Source: Nitrospira sp. (GTDB lineage Bacteria > Nitrospirota > Nitrospiria > Nitrospirales > Nitrospiraceae). From it: a DNA stretch of 64,000 nt. Made by a program: the position numbers and the translations under genes. Below are positions 2,708 through 62,222 of this stretch, in pieces; position 1 is the stretch's first letter; each line of letters begins with the position of its first letter. Where the stretch lies: NCBI GenBank assembly GCA_005116835.1, contig SWDM01000016.1:62001-126000 (forward strand), given 5' to 3'. Below the pieces are notes generated by a model. The model did not search any database and was not told the origin of the DNA. It saw nothing but the letters and a program-made list of their open reading frames with translations.

Positions 2708-3403
2708 TCAGCCTGATAGACCAGACAGGATGGAATCAGTAGAGATCGCGACCAGCCGAAAGACTTCCGCATATTGACCAACCGGGGCGCTGGCCTTCGG
2801 GTCGGCGAATACGGCACGCCAGCGGTTCATTCCCAACACTCCTTCTCCATAGGGTATGGTCGCCACCTGGCTTTGGTGCTCTGCAATGGCAGCCATCTTC
2901 GTCGCCACAAAGCCGTCAATGTATTCGAGACGGTCCCAGTTGGCAAAAGGCCCCCAGATTTCATATGACCAGAGGCCGCCGCTGAGATTGGTGTCGGCTT
3001 CAAGGACGCTTTCCCTCGCCAGCTTACCGGCAAGTCGATGGGCCGGATGCCGATCGAGTTCCTCATCCAACGTATAGACCTCGGTCGGACGAAGTCGAGC
3101 CAGGATCTCGACGAGTCTCCGCGTGACAGCCTTGGTATCGATCTCGTCGGCTGCGTCCGGTTCGTCACAAAAGATCACCTCCGTGACTCCCAAAACGCCG
3201 GCGGCACGGAGGGCTTCTTCTCTTCTTACCTTCGCCATCTGCTGCTCTGTCAACGCGAATGGATTGGACGATCTGCCACCGTTCGTAATAACGACGGACG
3301 TGATTACCGCCATGGACGCCACCAGCTTGGCAACCGTCCCGCCCATGCCGATTTCCATGTCATCCGGATGGGCACTGATGATGACAACGCGGTGTTGGTT
3401 CAT
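2708..3403 (-). CDS. PIG-L/LmbE family deacetylase
   Basis: Zinc-dependent deacetylase of the LmbE/PIG-L family, which removes N-acetyl groups from N-acetylglucosaminyl or related conjugates; the substrate cannot be told from sequence. The zinc and catalytic motif AHPDDMEIG lies at the N-terminus and the third ligand region DRHPAH about residue 125. The protein is about 231 residues from the chosen ATG. The reading frame is open further to 3442 (TTG), but those extra codons are the arm of a 9-bp repeat and read as Asn-Gln-X triplets, and no family member needs them. ATG codons at 3412 and 3403 are both inside the repeat, and neither has a Shine-Dalgarno sequence. It may be the last gene of the mrp-lipA run. 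Confidence 0.85.
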   Translation of the reverse strand: MNQHRVVIISAHPDDMEIGMGGTVAKLVASMAVITSVVITNGGRSSNPFALTEQQMAKVRREEALRAAGVLGVTEVIFCDEPDAADEIDTKAVTRRLVEILARLRPTEVYTLDEELDRHPAHRLAGKLARESVLEADTNLSGGLWSYEIWGPFANWDRLEYIDGFVATKMAAIAEHQSQVATIPYGEGVLGMNRWRAVFADPKASAPVGQYAEVFRLVAISTDSILSGLSG

Positions 3404-3505
3404 CTTGTTCATTTGGTCTGTCTGGTTTGTTTGGTTGAACAAAACTAACGAAATGAATGCACTAATCCAGATAGATCAGAGAAATGATATGAACCAGACA
3501 AACCG
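3397..3505. repeat. 9-bp-unit palindrome, family B (copy 1)
   Basis: The left arm has units of the YYRTYTGGT type (CATTTGGTCTGTCTGGT and following), then the core TTGGTTGAACAAAACTAACG, then a right arm with units of the ACCAGAYRR type (CCAGATAGATCAG, GAACCAGACAAACCGG). The arms are complementary, so a long imperfect hairpin is possible. It overlaps the start of the PIG-L gene and follows lipA. Confidence 0.8.
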
Positions 3506-3568
3506 GATTTGTCCCAGGCGTGCCAACCATCGAAGTTCTCTCGTAACCACATAGTTTTCTTCAGCATA

Positions 3569-4483
3569 TTAAAGAGCTACCTGCCGGTCTGCATGGTAGG
3601 AGCTGCGGACAAGTGGGCCTGATTCGACGTGGGTGAAGCCAAGGGCTCTCCCCTCCTCTTTGAGCATTACAAACTCGCTGGGATCGTAGAAGCGTGCAAC
3701 AGGCAGGTGGTCTCTTGTCGGTTGGAGATATTGACCGATGGTGATGATGTCGCAGCCGACTGAGCGCAGATCACGCATGACGTCACGCGCCTCGTCGATC
3801 GTCTCTCCCATCCCGAGGATCAACCCGGACTTGGTATGCATGCCCAAATGTTTGGCTTTGCCGAGTAATTCGATCGATCGATGATACTTTCCCTGGGGTC
3901 TGATAGCCGGAAACAGCCGCTGAACCGTTTCAATATTGTGATTGAGAATGTCCGGCTTCTCGGCACAGACTGTCGCAAGGGCAGTCTCATTCCCCTCAAA
4001 ATCAGGAATCAGCACTTCAATCGTACAGTCCGGACTGAGCTGCCTAATCTGTCGAATGGTTTCAGCAAAGATGGCGGCGCCGCCATCTTCCAGTTCATCA
4101 CGATTCACCGAAGTGATGACAGCATGGCGAAGGCCCAATGCCTGAACTGCCTCAGCGACACGTCGTGGCTCTGCATGATCGACCGCCAAGGGTCGGCCTG
4201 TCTCGACTGAACAGTAGTGGCAGCGTCTGGTGCAGATGTCGCCCAGGATCAGAAATGTCGCGGTGCGCGCGTTCCAACATTCCCATCGATTCGGACAGCG
4301 AGCTTCTTCACAGATGGTGTGGAGATTGAGCCGGTCCATCGTCTGTTTGATGTCGAGGTAGTCCGGACCGGTTTTCGCCTGGACTTTGAACCATGAAGGA
4401 AGGCGTCCGGACAGGCTGATGGCTGATGGCTGATGGCTGATGGCCTGAGATGATCGAAGTTGATCTAGGGGGATGAAGCTCAT
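3569..4483 (-). CDS. lipA: lipoyl synthase (radical SAM)
   Basis: Inserts two sulfurs into protein-bound octanoyl groups to make lipoate for 2-oxoacid dehydrogenases and glycine cleavage. Both Fe-S sites are intact: the auxiliary cluster ligands C58, C63 and C69 (CEEARCPNRWEC) and the radical-SAM CxxxCxxC at C84, C88 and C91 (CTRRCHYC). The C-terminus keeps the family ending SGPLVRSSYHAD. The length of 304 is normal. Residues 12-27 are unusual: they are encoded by four exact GGCTGAT heptamers on the plus strand and have no counterpart in usual LipA. No other start codon exists between the repeat and the conserved core. It follows mrp and two unknown genes with a 9-base gap and is likely co-transcribed. 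Confidence 0.97.
   Translation of the reverse strand: MSFIPLDQLRSSQAISHQPSAISLSGRLPSWFKVQAKTGPDYLDIKQTMDRLNLHTICEEARCPNRWECWNARTATFLILGDICTRRCHYCSVETGRPLAVDHAEPRRVAEAVQALGLRHAVITSVNRDELEDGGAAIFAETIRQIRQLSPDCTIEVLIPDFEGNETALATVCAEKPDILNHNIETVQRLFPAIRPQGKYHRSIELLGKAKHLGMHTKSGLILGMGETIDEARDVMRDLRSVGCDIITIGQYLQPTRDHLPVARFYDPSEFVMLKEEGRALGFTHVESGPLVRSSYHADRQVAL
4414..4441. repeat. four exact 7-bp tandem repeats inside lipA
   Basis: GGCTGAT is repeated four times without error, followed by a near copy (GGCCTGA). The unit is not a multiple of three, and it sits between the only available lipA start codon and the conserved core, so any change in copy number other than by three units would break the frame. 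Confidence 0.9.
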
Positions 4484-6285: not shown

Positions 6286-7182
6286 TTACCCGACTGTGGG
6301 ATCGTTACGACGAAGATTGCTTGTGAGGCCGATCAGCGACAGCGTGTAGATGATCCACTTCGAGGGGTCGAAATTGTACCACTGAGGTCCGTTACGATAA
6401 TCGCGCGCATAGGTGTGATGAAAATTGTGATACCCCTCGCCAAAACTCACGAAGGAAACCAGCCAACTGTCGCGGCTGCTGTCCTTTTTACTATAGGGCT
6501 GCGCGCCTATCATGTGGCAGAGTGAATTGATCGTGAAGGTGGAATTCAGCACCATGAAGAGTCGGAATAACCCGCCCAAGAGCAGCCCGCTGATGCCACC
6601 TTGCAAACCGCCATGCCACAGACCAAGGATAAAGGGAAGTAACAATCCCGTAACCACGATCGGCCAATAGAAGCGATGTTGCCACATCACAATGGGGTCG
6701 CGCCGCAAACGGACTTCGTATTTTTCCTTGCGATGGATGCTGTTGTAAAACAGCCAGCCGCAGTGGCTGTGCCAGAATCCCTTGGTGGCGTTATAGGGAT
6801 CTTCTTCTTCATCTGTCTTGGCATGATGCCGGATATGGTCGCTGCCCCACTTGAGGGCAGAGTTCTGCAGCGCCCACCCGGCGGCAACGAGTATACAGGC
6901 CTTGACCCAGTTCGGGCATTCGAAACTCTGGTGCGAAATCAGCCGATGGTAGCCGACGGTGATCCCCATGCCTGTCACGACATACATGGAGAAGAACAGT
7001 CCCCAATCGAAGAGGCTGAACCCGTAATAGTACCCGTATAGCGGGACACCGATCGTGTTGGCGATGACAATGGCACAGAAGAGAACAAAGTTCAGTGGAG
7101 AAAAAGGAGCGGTGGCTGGTGTCGCCTCTGTAGTAGGCGTGGCTTCCGTTGTAGGTGTCGCTTCAGTTGTTGTTGCGAGCAT
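6286..7182 (-). CDS. acyl-CoA/acyl-lipid delta-9-type fatty acid desaturase
   Basis: Membrane di-iron desaturase that puts a double bond into fatty acyl chains using O2. All three histidine boxes are present: HRLISH (79-84), HIRHH (116-120) and HNFHH (about 250). Hydrophobic segments flank them (about 31-72, 93-110 and 170-215). The N-terminus carries three copies of a Thr-Glu-Ala-Thr-Pro-Thr hexapeptide from an 18-base tandem repeat, absent from usual family members and probably disordered. It is divergent from putA with about 150 bases between, so both promoters should lie there. The use of O2 indicates an aerobic lifestyle. Confidence 0.93.
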   Translation of the reverse strand: MLATTTEATPTTEATPTTEATPATAPFSPLNFVLFCAIVIANTIGVPLYGYYYGFSLFDWGLFFSMYVVTGMGITVGYHRLISHQSFECPNWVKACILVAAGWALQNSALKWGSDHIRHHAKTDEEEDPYNATKGFWHSHCGWLFYNSIHRKEKYEVRLRRDPIVMWQHRFYWPIVVTGLLLPFILGLWHGGLQGGISGLLLGGLFRLFMVLNSTFTINSLCHMIGAQPYSKKDSSRDSWLVSFVSFGEGYHNFHHTYARDYRNGPQWYNFDPSKWIIYTLSLIGLTSNLRRNDPTVG

Positions 7183-11092: not shown

Positions 11093-11260
11093 GAGCGAGA
11101 CCCTCCGATCATTCAAGGATGGGCGACCGTACCATAGGAGTCCGGGAAGCGGCAAGGGAAGGATGGCGACTCAATCGCGTAACACGTCGTTCGTGAAGCG
11201 CAGGATCGCGTTTGTAGGCTTGCCTTCGTCCGTTATCCCTCCCATAATCGGATCGTTGTC

Positions 11261-11353
11261 CGGTTTATTTGGTTTGTCTCGTTTATTTGGTTGAACGAAA
11301 CAAACCAGAGGAACCAAAGAAACCAAATAAACCAAATGAACCAAATAAACCAG
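11261..11353. repeat. 9-bp-unit palindrome, family B (copy 2)
   Basis: Left arm units such as GGTTTATTTGGTTTGTCTCG, core TTGGTTGAACGAAACAAACC, right arm of at least five ACCAAAYAA-type units. It lies between divergent genes, and its right arm runs into the start of the SDR gene. Confidence 0.85.
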
Positions 11354-12067
11354 AAACATGCGGTGCTTGTGACCGGCGCATCCGGGGGCATTGGCCGAGC
11401 CATCAGCGTGGCGTTTGCCCTAGCCGGCTGGTCTGTTGGGGTCCATTACCATCGAAACAAGACTGCGGCTGAGGGCACCTTTGCGCGAGTTGTGGCAGCC
11501 GGTGGGGCCGGGGCTCTCTATCAAGCCGATATTCGCGAGCCTCATGCGGTACAACAGATGGTTGACGCCGCCTGCCGTAGGGAACCAGCGCCATCTGTGT
11601 TCATCTGTAATGCCGGAATTGGAGGGAGCCATCTTCTTCTTCGACAAAATGAAACAGATTGGGCAGAGATAGTGGCCACCAATCTCACTGGGACATTTCA
11701 CTGCCTTCGCGCCATGGCTCCTCCCCTCCTTGCCCGCAACGGCGGATCAATCGTCGTGATCGGGTCCTATGCGGGCTTTCACGGTTCGATTGGGCAGACT
11801 GCCTACGCTGCGTCCAAGGCAGGGCTGATCGGCTTGGTGCAGACCGTCGCCAAGGAATGGGGATCTAGCAACATTCGTGTGAATCTTCTCTTGCCAGGGT
11901 GGCAGGTGACGGGGCTGTCCGAAGGAGCCATGCCGGAAGCCGATGCGTGGAACGGCCATGCGTTGGGTCGACCGCCCTCACGAGAAGAAGTGGCCAGGAC
12001 CGTCTTGCATCTCGCTCAACTTAACGATGTGTCGGGGCAGGTGTGGAACTGTGACAGCCGAACTCTA

Positions 12068-12070
<3 letters not shown>
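11336..12070 (+). CDS. short-chain dehydrogenase/reductase, FabG-like
   Basis: NAD(P)-dependent reductase of the classical SDR type, about 244 residues. The cofactor motif TGASGGIG is near the start, followed by the NAG motif (CNAGIG), the catalytic Ser region (VVIGSYAG) and YxxxK (YAASK). It probably reduces a 3-oxoacyl group, but the substrate is not shown. It is followed by bioD in the same direction, so a part in pimeloyl/biotin synthesis is possible. The frame stays open to a TTG at 11291, but that part is a 9-bp repeat arm reading as Asn-Gln-X units; ATG 11336 is still inside the repeat. Its TAG stop is the first three bases of a family A element. Confidence 0.88.
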
Positions 12071-13610
<1,540 letters not shown>

Positions 13611-26433: not shown

Positions 26434-26697
26434 CAAGATGCTCAAAAAGGCCAGCCTCCTCACCAACCCAACCCAACCCAACCCTAGCGCGCCTAGACGC
26501 GCCTGGTCCCAAGCAAGGCCGCAGCGAGCAAAGAGGCGAGGAGGTACGTACCGCACTTGTGGAGCCGTTCGCCCATACAGTGAATCTTGGCGAACGGGAC
26601 ATACCCTCCAGTGCTCCCGATATTCGCGGTATTCCTTCTCAACGTTGAGTCTCTGAGCGATGCAAAAACACCGCTGGCGGACTGTTTCAGCATCTTG
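26434..26697 (-). repeat. dispersed inverted-repeat element, family A (copy 3)
   Basis: Read on the minus strand it begins directly at the hflX stop (TAACAAGATGCTGAAACAGTC) and ends CTTTTTGAGCATCTTG near 26434, about 264 bp, the longest copy. Inside are CGCCAGCGGTGTTTTTGCATC, the palindrome GGTACGTACC (26543-26552), a hairpin CCGTTCGCC/GGCGAACGG (26565-26597), and a short tandem run of CCCAA (26464-26485). The region 26297-26433 between it and nth shows no gene. Confidence 0.75.
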
Positions 26698-28305
26698 TTA
26701 GACAGCCGGTTTCTTAGGAGAACCGTCCACAGAAGCAAGGGCAGACAATCGTTCTTCTAGGTGCTGGATCAATGGGGCCAAGGTTTCTTGGCGTAGAGAG
26801 GAAATTCCAATGGCGCTGTATCGCCGGCACAGGGTTTCCGCTTGTCCTGACGGGAGTTGGTCGCACTTATTGAAGACCAGCACCCGTGGAATCTGATCGA
26901 GGGTGAGGCTTTGGAGCACAGTCTCGACCGACGCGATATGGGTATCCAAATCCTTCGTCCCGGCGTCGACGACATGCAGAAGAAGGTCTGCATCGCGCAT
27001 TTCGTCCAAGGTTGTCCTGAAGGCCGCAAGGAGATCTTTGGGTAGGTCGCGAATGAATCCCACAGTGTCAGTGAGGATGGCTTCCTTCCCGCTTGGGAAA
27101 TGCAGTCTGCGGCTCGTGGTATCGAGCGTTTCAAAGACTCGCGGGGCCGTACTCACCTGGCTCTTCGTTAATACGTTGAGCAACGTCGATTTGCCTGCAT
27201 TGGTATAGCCCACAATGGACAGAATTGGAAATGCTTGTCGAACCCGGCGAGAGCGCCGTTGATCTTGGTGACGGGCAAAACCTTCGATCTCGCGCTCCAA
27301 ATAGTCGATGCGTTCTCTGATACGTCGGCGATCCGTTTCGAGTTTCGTTTCTCCTGGACCTCTGCTGCCGATTCCTCCGCCCAACCGCGAGAGGCTCGTT
27401 CCCTGACCGGAGAGACGGGGAAGGAGATAACGAAGCTGCGCCAACTCGACCTGCACTTTCCCTTCACGGCTATGGGCACGTTGAGCGAAGATGTCGAGAA
27501 TCAGCTGGGTCCGATCGATAACCGTGAGGTCGGTAATCTCCGCTATAGCCCGCAACTGCCCGGGAGCTAAATCTTGATCGAAGATCAGCAGATCCGCGCC
27601 TTGTTGCATGGCTTGCATCAACACGTCTTTGAGTTTGCCGCTTCCCAACTGGAAGCGATGATGGCCGCTCTGTGTGCGTTGCACGAGCCGGTCGATGACC
27701 GTGAGATCTGCAGAGGAGGCCAAGTCTGCCAGTTCTACCAGCCGTTCTTCTTGGTCAGCCTTACTCTTGGGTGAAGCGCTCACGAGGATGGCTGTCTGTT
27801 TCGCAGCCAGCGCGTGAGACCCGCTCTGACGCTGAAGATCTGTTTCCAGTTCATGGATGAAGGTCTCGAATTTCACCGGGCATTGATGAGCAAGAGTAGA
27901 ACTCAAGACTGTATACAACGGTCCTTTAGGTGTGGGCGGATTGAGATGGGCTAGAGAGAGTAATCCCGGTTCACCTTTTGAAGTAACGGCCAATATCCCG
28001 ATCATATCGAGCCTCAGCAGGCCCAACATCGTCAGATCTTCCTGCGTCAAAGGCTGATCCTTTAGCTGCGAGCGTATGAGGCGTAGACCTCGTAAAGATC
28101 GCGGGCTGGCACGAAAGGTAGTCAGCGTCGTCGCTGAGGGCTCGGCGCCGGCCCCGACCAGGACGTCTTGGACAGCCCCGCGTCTGGTAATGACCAGTCC
28201 GATAGGGCGACGAATCTCGTGGGTGAACTGCGCGAGAGTTTTTGCCGCTTCTGCCGAGATGACATCATCGACAGGCATGCGCCGGCGATAAAGCCGCTCA
28301 AGCAT
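26698..28305 (-). CDS. hflX: HflX-type ribosome-associated GTPase, start codon unclear
   Basis: GTPase that binds the 50S subunit and splits stalled or hibernating ribosomes. It has the HflX domain with GGGIGSRGPGETKLETDRR (about 310), then the G domain: G1 GYTNAGKST (about 365), G3 DTVGFIRDLP, G4 NKCD. This is the long form with an extra N-terminal domain. The family pattern GLRxGQL...LERLYRRR begins 16 codons upstream of the first ATG (28305), and the frame stays open to a stop at 28420, but without any ATG, GTG or TTG there. An ATT at about 28356 with AAGGA upstream, or an N-terminally trimmed protein from 28305, are the options. Confidence 0.92.
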   Translation of the reverse strand: MLERLYRRRMPVDDVISAEAAKTLAQFTHEIRRPIGLVITRRGAVQDVLVGAGAEPSATTLTTFRASPRSLRGLRLIRSQLKDQPLTQEDLTMLGLLRLDMIGILAVTSKGEPGLLSLAHLNPPTPKGPLYTVLSSTLAHQCPVKFETFIHELETDLQRQSGSHALAAKQTAILVSASPKSKADQEERLVELADLASSADLTVIDRLVQRTQSGHHRFQLGSGKLKDVLMQAMQQGADLLIFDQDLAPGQLRAIAEITDLTVIDRTQLILDIFAQRAHSREGKVQVELAQLRYLLPRLSGQGTSLSRLGGGIGSRGPGETKLETDRRRIRERIDYLEREIEGFARHQDQRRSRRVRQAFPILSIVGYTNAGKSTLLNVLTKSQVSTAPRVFETLDTTSRRLHFPSGKEAILTDTVGFIRDLPKDLLAAFRTTLDEMRDADLLLHVVDAGTKDLDTHIASVETVLQSLTLDQIPRVLVFNKCDQLPSGQAETLCRRYSAIGISSLRQETLAPLIQHLEERLSALASVDGSPKKPAV

Positions 28306-28387: not shown

Positions 28388-28470
28388 GAGTCTATCTGGT
28401 CTATTCAGTCTGTCGCGTGTATGTGATCTGACGAAACTAACCGGTAGGACCAGACAGACTAAATGAACAG
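28388..28470. repeat. 9-bp-unit palindrome, family B (copy 3)
   Basis: Arms CTATCTGGTCTATTCAGTCTG and, after the core ACGAAACTAACC, GGACCAGACAGACTAAATGAAC. It covers the space between tsaD and hflX, encodes the last residues and stop of tsaD, and reaches the 5' end of the hflX frame. Confidence 0.8.
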
Positions 28471-29501
28471 GCGAGTGAGGCCTTGGCATCGATATCGAGA
28501 GGCGCATAGAGTCCGTCGAGAAGCGCCTGTCTCCCCGCTGCAGCAATCATTGCAGCGTTGTCGGTACAGTAAGCCAGCGGGGGAATACTGAGTTGCAGGC
28601 TCTCTGATAGAGCGCGCTGCTGAAGCAGCGCGCGCAAACGCGAATTGGCCGACACCCCCCCCACAACTGCCAGCGCGCATGCACCGGATGACCGGACCGC
28701 AGCAATCGACTTTTCAACCAAGACCGCCACAATGGCCTCCTGATAGCTAGCCGCCAAATCGGCAGCCTGCGCTGCGCGTGCCTGCTTATCCATCTTTTGA
28801 AGTCTATAGAGTAGCGCCGTTTTTAAGCCGCTGAAGCTAAAGTCCAGACTCCCCTTCCTGATAGAGGATCGAGGGAAAGGAATAGCCTCAGGGTTTCCCA
28901 GTCGCGCCAGGCGATCGACCGCCGGGCCTCCAGGAAACCCCAGTTCAAGCAACTGCGCGCCTTTATCGAAAGCCTCTCCCGCCGCATCGTCTCTAGTGGC
29001 GCCAAGGAGCCGGCATTGACCGGTTATGTCCTTATAATAGAGATGGGTATGGCCACCCGAGACAACCAGAACCACGCAGGGTAATGGGAAGGCTGGATCC
29101 TGCAACCAGGCGGAAGCGATATGACCTTCCAAATGGCTCACACCCACCAGGGGAATATCTAAGGCATAGGCTAGCGCTTTTGCATAGTTGACCCCCACCA
29201 AAAGCGAACCGGCTAGACCCGGCCCCTGGGTAACGGCGATTCCAGTCAGATCCATCCATGAAAGACCTGCTTGTTGCAGTGCCTCAGCAGAAACATTCTC
29301 AATCGATTCGATATGGGCTCGGGAGGCAAGTTCGGGAACGACGCCACCGAATCGCTCATGGACCCTATGTTGAGAGGTAATAATATTTGAGCGAACCGTG
29401 CCGTCTGCGGCAAGCACCGAGGCAGCCGTTTCATCGCAAGATGTCTCGATACCAAGGATGGGCCCGGGCACCCAAGGTGAACTGGATCGTTCGGTAGTCA
29501 T
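28437..29501 (-). CDS. tsaD: tRNA N6-threonylcarbamoyladenosine synthase subunit
   Basis: Transfers threonylcarbamoyl to A37 of ANN-decoding tRNAs. ASKHA fold with the start ILGIETSCDETAASV, the metal-binding HLEGH (about 121-125), VVSGGHTHLYY, and GGVSANSRLR; 354 residues is standard. The last nine residues (SFSLSGPTG) and the stop codon fall in a family B repeat, so the true family C-terminus may have been replaced. It lies between clpC and hflX, all leftward. Confidence 0.96.
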   Translation of the reverse strand: MTTERSSSPWVPGPILGIETSCDETAASVLAADGTVRSNIITSQHRVHERFGGVVPELASRAHIESIENVSAEALQQAGLSWMDLTGIAVTQGPGLAGSLLVGVNYAKALAYALDIPLVGVSHLEGHIASAWLQDPAFPLPCVVLVVSGGHTHLYYKDITGQCRLLGATRDDAAGEAFDKGAQLLELGFPGGPAVDRLARLGNPEAIPFPRSSIRKGSLDFSFSGLKTALLYRLQKMDKQARAAQAADLAASYQEAIVAVLVEKSIAAVRSSGACALAVVGGVSANSRLRALLQQRALSESLQLSIPPLAYCTDNAAMIAAAGRQALLDGLYAPLDIDAKASLACSFSLSGPTG

Positions 29502-38032: not shown

Positions 38033-38167
38033 GGTAGACCTCCTTTTAACTTTTACGCACTGTTTGAGAACGTCTACGGACGCGCGCGCCGGTTCGTCTA
38101 TCTGAGCTATGAGATAAAACAGGATATCGTGGAGTCAAGGGGGGCCACGCGCAAAGCGCGCGAACCG

Positions 38168-38264
38168 GATGGTTTGTCTTGTTTGTTTAGTCTATTTAAT
38201 TTGTTTGGTTGAAGGAAACTAACCAGGTAACCAAATCAACCAGATGAACAAACCAAATGAACCG
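38168..38264. repeat. 9-bp-unit palindrome, family B (copy 4)
   Basis: Left arm GGTTTGTCTTGTTTGTTTAG and on, core TTGGTTGAAGGAAACTAACC, right arm with CCAAATCAACCAGATGAAC and AACCAAATGAACC. It ends six bases from the citrate synthase stop. Confidence 0.85.
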
Positions 38265-40028: not shown

Positions 40029-40202
40029 GCAGGATGCTCAAAAAGGCCGTTCAGCAAGGCCGCAGCGAGTGAAGACCGGAGGCGTACCCTTCCTCACCCA
40101 CCCGCCCCCGAGCTGCCAAGACAGCTCGTTTCCCGAGTGGGGTACGTTGAGGATCTGAGCGATGCGAGAACGACGCTGGCGGGCTTTTTCAGCATCCTGC
40201 TA
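40029..40202 (-). repeat. dispersed inverted-repeat element, family A (copy 4)
   Basis: Ends GCAGGATGCTCAAAAAGGCC (left) and GGGCTTTTTCAGCATCCTGC (right) match as inverted repeats at about 17 of 20 positions. Inner landmarks: GAGGCGTACCC and GGGTACGTTGAGG, a hairpin AGCTGCCAAGACAGCT, GAACGACGCTGGCGGG. On the minus strand it begins with the TAG that ends the zinc-ribbon-like gene, same orientation as that gene. Confidence 0.85.
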
Positions 40203-42457: not shown

Positions 42458-42483
42458 GGTTACTCACCGCATAGAGTGAATTA

Positions 42484-42704
42484 GCAGGATGCTGAAAAAG
42501 TCCGCCAGCATCGGTCAGAGCTAACGTGACCTGTGCGAGATCCATACCAGCTCTGTCCTGATGAAGGGGGAGAGAGGCGTGGAGCCTATGATACCAAAAC
42601 CCTGTAAATCATCGCTTTCCAAGAGCACGCCGGACTTACAGCGGCTACAGAGAGAGGGCCCTGCATGGTGGGCCTGAGAGAAGGCCGTTTTTGAACAGCC
42701 TGCA
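42484..42704 (+). repeat. dispersed inverted-repeat element, family A (copy 5)
   Basis: Left end TTAGCAGGATGCTGAAAAAG then TCCGCCAGC, right end GGCCGTTTTTGAACAGCCTGC; about 221 bp. It lies between the start of the GGDEF-like gene and the stop of the RNase D-like gene (about 6 bases away). This is the only copy whose orientation is opposite to the gene it follows. Its middle is more diverged than in other copies. Confidence 0.7.
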
Positions 42705-44616: not shown

Positions 44617-44712
44617 CCCAGTCTATCTGGTCTATTCGGTCTATCTGCTCTGTCTGGTTGATCTGGTTAGTGTCGTTCAACCAAATACACGAGACAGACC
44701 GAATGGACCCAA
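44617..44712. repeat. 9-bp-unit palindrome, family B (copy 5)
   Basis: AGTCTATCTGGTCTATTCGG arm, core in opposite orientation (GGTTAGTGTCGTTCAACCAA), right arm GAGACAGACCGAATGGACCC. Arms are shorter and more diverged than in the other copies. Between malic enzyme and the DnaJ-domain gene. Confidence 0.75.
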
Positions 44713-44797
44713 GTGAACAAGAGGCGCGCATTGTAGCACAGCCCAGCCCCATGCCAGAAGAGCAGTGGAAACAGCTGAATTCATATGAAATGTGGGG

Positions 44798-50277: not shown

Positions 50278-50481
50278 CTAGCAGGCTGTTGAGAAAGTCC
50301 GCCAACGGCGTTGTCGCGGCAATCAGTGGCTCAACGTACGGCGGAGAGTACGCTTCGCCTCTTTGCTTGCTGCGGCCTTGTTGGACGGCCTTTCTTAACA
50401 GCCTGCGCCCTATCGTGAGATCATCCGTGACCTGCTCTATAATACCGAAGCGTTTAGGTGAGTTTCTCAACAGACTGCTAG
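50278..50481 (+). repeat. dispersed inverted-repeat element, family A (copy 6)
   Basis: 204 bp with ends CTAGCAGGCTGTTGAGAAAG and GTTTCTCAACAGACTGCTAG. Very similar along its length to the copy at 2505-2701 (shared AACGTACGGCGGAGAG, TATCGTGAGATCATCC, TTTAGGTGAGTTT). The TTGA-G/C-AAA position differs from copy 1 on both arms in a complementary way. It begins 23 bases after the YyaL-AKR stop, in gene orientation. Confidence 0.85.
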
Positions 50482-52436: not shown

Positions 52437-52473
52437 TTCCTCGTCTATCGCACACCTTTCCTGCGTTCAACAA

Positions 52474-52624
52474 TCTGGTTTATTTGGTTTGTCTGGTTTG
52501 TTTTGTTTATCTGGTTGATTTTGGTTCATCTGCTTAGTTTCGTTCAACCAAAGAACCAGATAGACCAGACAAACCAAATAGACCAGATAGGCCAGATGAA
52601 CCAGATAGACCAGATGAACCGAAT
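52474..52624. repeat. 9-bp-unit palindrome, family B (copy 6, longest)
   Basis: Left arm 52474-52540 of YYRTYTGGT-type units, core in inverted orientation (TTAGTTTCGTTCAACCAAAG), right arm 52551-52624 of seven to eight ACCAGAYRR units with a strict 9-base period (ACCAGATAG, ACCAGACAA, ACCAAATAG, ACCAGATAG, GCCAGATGA...). It lies between gspC and gspE, where gspD would be expected. Confidence 0.9.
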
Positions 52625-52737
52625 GCCTTGTCAGAGCGATCCGATAGAGAGTATCTTTTAAGCCTCAAGGCGTTCTGGGCACGCCCCCAGGCTGATGCGC
52701 ATCCGAGAAACGGCCGATCGATCTGTGGATATTCCGA

Positions 52738-58942: not shown

Positions 58943-58960
58943 AGGGAAAAGAACATTATT

Positions 58961-59053
58961 TCGTTTATTTGGTTTGTCTCGTTTGTTTGGTCTTATGGAA
59001 CTAACCAGATCGACCATATAAACAAAACAAACCAAATGAACCAAACAAACCGG
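58961..59053. repeat. 9-bp-unit palindrome, family B (copy 7)
   Basis: Left arm TCGTTTATTTGGTTTGTCTC and on, a partly changed core (TCTTATGGAACTAACC), right arm ending ACCAAATGAACCAAACAAACC. It lies between gspN and gspL, ending 14 bases before the gspL start. Confidence 0.85.
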
Positions 59054-62129: not shown

Positions 62130-62222
62130 GATCTGGTTCATTTGGTCTGTCTAGTCTGTTCGGTCTGTCTTGTTTGTTTGGTTGAACCAGAGAGAAAAAT
62201 AGACCAGAGAGACCAGACAAAC
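62130..62222. repeat. 9-bp-unit palindrome, family B (copy 8)
   Basis: Left arm CGATCTGGTTCATTTGGTCT and on, core TTGGTTGAACCAGAGAG, right arm AGACCAGAGAGACCAGACAAACC. It follows the gspK stop by three bases and precedes the Pho-controlled porin. Confidence 0.85.

Follow-up and report, generated by a model that had tools for sequence, protein, structure and literature searches.

A dispersed hairpin repeat of one Nitrospira genus, family B, appears to provide the beginnings of proteins. In at least five genes, those of a FabG-like SDR enzyme, a PIG-L deacetylase, hemC, a lipoprotein and a DUF3108 exported protein, the protein appears from orthologue comparison to begin within the repeat. Our preferred reading, to which we assign a probability of about 0.82, is that the element has replaced the native gene start by opportunism and that an ATG of its arm is the new start codon. 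The window analyzed is a stretch of 64,000 nucleotides from a 3.94 Mb draft Nitrospira genome, and all of the assemblies with which it was compared are draft or metagenome assemblies.

All copies of the repeat have arms composed of 9-nt units flanking a conserved, oriented core, GGTTGAACGAAACTAACC, which forms the loop of the hairpin. The left arm consists of GGTTYRTTT units and the right arm of the complementary units ARAYRAACC. The elements are about 80–150 bp long and upon inspection of 39 elements and their flanks the ends were found to read about CTGGTT...AACCAG. As the 9-nt unit is nearly symmetric, a reversed 13-mer is an uninformative control and the loop core was used for counts instead. 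With two or fewer mismatches allowed, the core had 71 matches in the window's genome and none in the reversed control. Family B is abundant in one Nitrospira genus and nearly absent elsewhere in the family: the core was found in 30 of the 32 genomes of the window's genus at 0–102 copies each (102 in G002), and the 115 genomes from the family's other genera gave stray core matches only, except for G100, which had six. The two genomes of the genus that had zero core motifs, G001 and G029, are small (1.7–1.8 Mb). A search of the window against Rfam gave no match above gathering score. In addition to the elements discussed below, the window contains family B elements at 38166–38264 (plus strand), at 44624–44714 (minus strand), at 52472–52625 (minus strand; the largest of the window), at 58957–59047 (plus strand; 14 bp past a stop codon, the downstream gene beginning beyond the element) and at 62130–62219 (minus strand; 2 bp past a stop codon). 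A second dispersed repeat family (CTAGCAGGCTGTTGAGAAAGTCCGCCAGC...) is found at 2505–2700, 12067–12190, 26642–26700, 40144–40202, 42479–42516 and 50278–50480.

Family B elements lie at gene ends, usually no more than about 20 bp from a stop codon. Their positions were scored in an 862 kb sample (22% of the genome) with 84 two-armed elements having terminal inverted repeats and 676 called genes, counts that are not scalable genome-wide because the sample was partly picked around repeat matches and is thus enriched in elements. Among the 54 elements located in spacers between genes of the same direction, 39 lay 22 bp or less from the stop codon of the upstream gene. Random placement within the spacers would put 19.5 elements in that interval, and 39 was reached in none of 20,000 simulations. 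The orientation of the core relative to the upstream gene showed no clear preference (33 same, 25 opposite). About 23 elements of this sample lay 30 bp or less from a called gene start, and hence start-codon takeover would be a minority outcome, which fits opportunism.

The preliminary description of the window had emphasized that the 9-nt unit keeps the arms open as (Asn-Gln-X)n. The frame is indeed open, but this is not a special property of the genes concerned, as just 46 of the 146 arms of four or more units have a stop codon in the N-Q-X frame. An ATG is present in that frame in 80 of the 146 (55%), the outward strand of the arms has its ATG codons almost confined to the N-Q-X frame, and the base rate of arms having an ATG within the final 36 nt is 42%. 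An open N-Q-X frame containing an ATG thus says little for a single gene, and the argument has to be built on comparison with orthologues. What is above chance, judged by sequence comparison, is conservation among orthologues together with the arm ATG substituting for the native start.

The SDR gene (PF00106, 1.8e-44) encodes a protein that is up to 84% identical to proteins of many Nitrospira assemblies, and would extend from the arm ATG over 11336–12070 of the plus strand (244 residues). At its 5′ end lies a plus-strand element at 11257–11356, an inverted repeat of 9-nt units having its loop core (GGTTGAACGAAACAAACC, 17 of 18 positions matching the consensus) at 11289–11306. The best candidate start codon is the arm ATG at 11336–11338 of the plus strand (MNQINQKHAVLVTGASGG...). 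Element-free relatives begin at the native ATG, and of their 59 loci 44 have the promoter motif TTGC[GC]T-17/18-[CG]ATAAT, which in 43 of those 44 is followed by an in-frame ATG 7–11 nt past the −10 hexamer. Owing to this spacing from a conserved −10 (orthologues L050–L104) we predict that the gene is, ancestrally, leaderless. The window retains the promoter upstream of the element (TTGCCT-17-CATAAT, plus strand, 11220–11248). The element follows roughly where the native ATG would stand, and 87 nt separate the −10 from the arm ATG. An element is present at the SDR gene of the window and 11 relatives, and in all 12 it is in frame with the enzyme and provides an in-frame arm ATG, 4–16 codons ahead of the enzyme core, although the 12 genes are not independent: parsimony gives four gains or losses, at least two of which are forced by well-supported branches. 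In two of the relatives (L037 and L049) an in-frame stop codon closely precedes the arm ATG, which is the sole start codon ahead of the enzyme core, and thus nothing upstream can serve as a start. The pN/pS values of 0.18–0.24 relative to related genes indicate purifying selection.

The PIG-L gene (PF02585) has the same open arm on the minus strand, as the preliminary description had noted. The element, at 3392–3509 of the minus strand, lies between the 3′ end of lipA and the 5′ end of the PIG-L gene, which from the arm ATG would extend over 2708–3403 (minus strand). That ATG (3401–3403, minus strand) occupies the codon at which native PIG-L genes have their ATG (MNQHRVVIISAHPDD versus MSHHNVVIISAHPDD), and a second arm ATG is found at 3412–3410. 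Twelve PIG-L orthologues have their own ATG, located outside any arm, and the pN/pS of 0.14–0.18 indicates purifying selection. A lone family B right-arm fragment (2701–2727) overlaps the last codons of the PIG-L gene. Tandem repeats were also observed in the window, one of 7 nt (GGCTGAT) at 4414–4444 in the N-terminal codons of a lipA-like ORF and one of 18 nt at 7118–7170 that reads (TTEATP)n and lies in the N-terminus of a fatty-acid-desaturase-like ORF.

Three further genes were found by a census of arms continuing in frame into a gene, followed by orthologue comparison. The native start of hemC (PF01379) is GAAAGGGAGC-N-ATG, with most of the genus having GGTGAAAGGGAGC-N-ATG or a sequence close to it. 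In the window's genome and its sister species G018 arm sequence replaces the native start, with the ATG at an equal codon position (G018, MNQTGHERSTVVLGTRG versus L213, MSTVGHERSTVVLGTRG). Four other loci (L209, L211, L213 and L217) have the repeat upstream of hemC and have kept the native start. The hemC pN/pS of 0.09–0.13 again indicates purifying selection. In three genomes (L263, L264 and L267) a gene lacking a Pfam match has its putative start in an arm, ahead of a signal peptide; we call the product a lipoprotein because a lipobox (LIGAC) can be read from its sequence. The fifth gene, encoding the DUF3108 exported protein (PF11306), has an arm ATG ahead of the signal peptide in two genomes (L235 and L236). 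The arm ATG of all 12 element-bearing SDR genes, and the four other genes in which such an ATG stands where the native start would be, uphold the earlier suggestion that the repeat may supply both start codon and N-terminus, and comparison with repeat-free orthologues, the check that had accompanied that suggestion, agrees with start-codon donation.

The other end of a protein can also be derived from the repeat. As first described, tsaD ends within an element (28393–28474, minus strand), which supplies its C-terminal codons. The gene ends at 28437, its stop codon TAG (28437–28439, minus strand) falling within the conserved core, which is read there on its other strand. In most of the genus the native TsaD C-terminus is about ASxxSPFAQAI-stop, and the endings in the window and several relatives are element-derived. 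Comparison of occupied with empty sites indicated that about 25 bp of native sequence was replaced, and no target site duplication was seen. At two loci (L137 and L139) a unit of the second repeat family (CTAGCAGGCTGTTGAGAAAGTCCGCCAGC...) downstream of tsaD has a family B hairpin, or the remnant of one, nested within it.

Given these orthologues we weighed other possible starts of the SDR protein. As the preliminary description had it, no stop codon interrupts the frame that leads from TTG 11291, in the loop core, through the arm into the enzyme. The open frame in fact reaches back to 11183, with TTG 11291 as its first start-type codon. Initiation at this TTG, which is outside the predicted stem, would give a longer N-Q-X tract, but five of the element-bearing relatives (L035, L036, L037, L048 and L049) lack the TTG at that place, whereas the arm ATG is present in 12 of 12, and we consider a start at the TTG most improbable. 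As the TTG is not conserved, translated tracts would be shorter than had been implied; ATG 11336, which fits better, is the likely start and the tract would be only MNQINQK. The arm holds the sole ATG of the SDR frame, in keeping with the original observation, but the enzyme core contains GTG codons at 11363 and 11369, which are present in many SDR relatives as well, and the composition-based gene caller picked 11363. Were either the start, the arm would be an untranslated leader. This is scarcely more probable than the TTG start: L049 has neither GTG nor TTG among the first codons of its SDR core, the first GTG is absent from L032, L034 and L048, and hemC, PIG-L, the lipoprotein and the DUF3108 protein carry arm ATGs in place of their native starts. 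A start at a core GTG would presumably also truncate the Rossmann fold within its first strand. Finally, since the insertions destroy native start regions, the genes might be decaying and not expressed. The low pN/pS of SDR, PIG-L and hemC, the intact reading frames and the role of hemC in haem synthesis, which is normally essential, make decay the least credible of the alternatives.

An alternative that leaves the arm ATG as the start concerns the hairpin itself. Four of the five arm starts lack Shine-Dalgarno pairing (−1.0 to +0.9 kcal/mol) and that of hemC has −5.0 kcal/mol, as compared with a median of −5.7 for typical genes and −8.9 to −10.0 for native hemC. For an mRNA that includes the complete hairpin, the predicted probability that the arm ATG is unpaired is 0.00–0.26 across the five genes, so that it would mostly be base-paired. 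The hairpin could be a selected translational switch, in which the arm ATG is concealed in full-length RNA and becomes accessible in transcripts begun or cut in the loop. The predicted unpaired probability of the SDR ATG increases from 0.06 to 0.83 when the RNA begins in the loop and that of the lipoprotein from 0.00 to 0.89 with the right arm alone, and the Correia/NEMIS hairpins are known RNase III targets (PMC2229807). However, the right arm alone only partly frees the hemC ATG (0.06 to 0.46), PIG-L is not freed (0.26 to 0.17) and DUF3108 hardly shifts (0.00 to 0.06). Moreover, the presence of the element at a given gene is patchy across species, which fits tolerance better than selected control. 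We regard a switch as unlikely, though the least unlikely of the alternatives. Somewhat less probable again is its broadest form, a genus-wide translation-start module in which loop cleavage or an alternative 5′ end frees the A/C-rich right arm, devoid of a Shine-Dalgarno sequence, whose ATG starts the gene; such a module would give switchable expression of unrelated genes, hemC included. We prefer opportunistic replacement of the start codon and keep the switch as a rival.

In the mechanism we propose, a genus-specific REP/MITE-like hairpin occupies intergenic spacers, usually flush with gene ends, and at some of them has removed the native Shine-Dalgarno sequence and ATG of the downstream gene. 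Should the outward arm there happen to be in the N-Q-X frame, the ATG of its CARATGAAC unit would become the new start codon at, or a few codons from, the old start, and the protein would gain a short Asn-Gln-X N-terminus where such a change is tolerated. In the SDR case the insertion would have separated the conserved promoter from the enzyme core, converting a gene predicted to be leaderless into one having a hairpin-containing leader of about 80 nt. Initiation by ribosomes at the arm ATG, like the manner in which the element would move, is our inference.

Fusions of repeats to genes (RPE, REP, MITE) are already known, and repeated start-codon donation is the newer part. The Rickettsia palindromic elements are genus-specific palindromes of about 100–150 bp translated in frame within conserved proteins (PMC10969869, PMC2229807), and family B is likewise a genus-specific palindrome read in frame. 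However, RPE insert inside genes and encode a conserved peptide, whereas family B is found at gene ends, has a 9-nt periodicity read as N-Q-X and donates a putative start codon. REP sequences, tagged by GTAG/CGTC, have many spacer copies and may contribute stop codons to genes (PMC3733652, PMC12306157), with a significant share located 1–20 nt after an ORF (PMC12306157); family B resembles them in its spacer location and closeness to upstream stop codons. They differ in that REP are 20–40 bp, carry the tags and are often linked to RAYT, whereas family B elements are 80–150 bp with 9-nt-unit arms. Family B works like a REP/MITE-type element, sharing with MITEs the terminal inverted repeats of the 84 two-armed elements of the 862 kb sample, but as far as tested it has neither REP tag nor RAYT link: inspection of the 39 elements and flanks gave no GTAG/CGTC tag at the hairpin ends, and a search for the core motif (14 or more of 18 positions) in the 2.3–3.3 kb around the genome's three Y1 transposase (PF01797) loci gave no match. 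The enterobacterial RU-1, RU-2 and RU-3 repeats (ERIC, YPAL) are small mobile repeats that form in-frame fusions with the C-termini of proteins and, in Yersinia pestis wbbJ, with an N-terminus; in the parts of that report available to us neither a sequence or architecture in common with family B nor recurrent replacement of native starts is described (PMC2759123). Coxiella QMITE2 is located mostly in 3′UTRs and provides an in-frame C-terminal extension of EnhC (PMC5896051), but is a 150–190 bp MITE with 7–11 nt direct repeats and a GTAG REP, and 9-nt-unit arms like those of family B are not described for it. The literature searched, which covered few subscription journals, gave no description of the family B repeat in Nitrospira and no report of a repeat that recurrently replaces native start codons.

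If our reading is correct, these genes, with orthologues that carry the repeat and others that lack it, would form a clear natural series in which a repeat takes over start codons, and the series would include hemC, a normally essential gene. Dispersed repeats could then rewrite both ends of proteins, and the automated assignment of start codons may go wrong in these genomes. The arm ATGs would also offer a testable set of starts that lack Shine-Dalgarno sequences and lie inside hairpins, in an important nitrifier.
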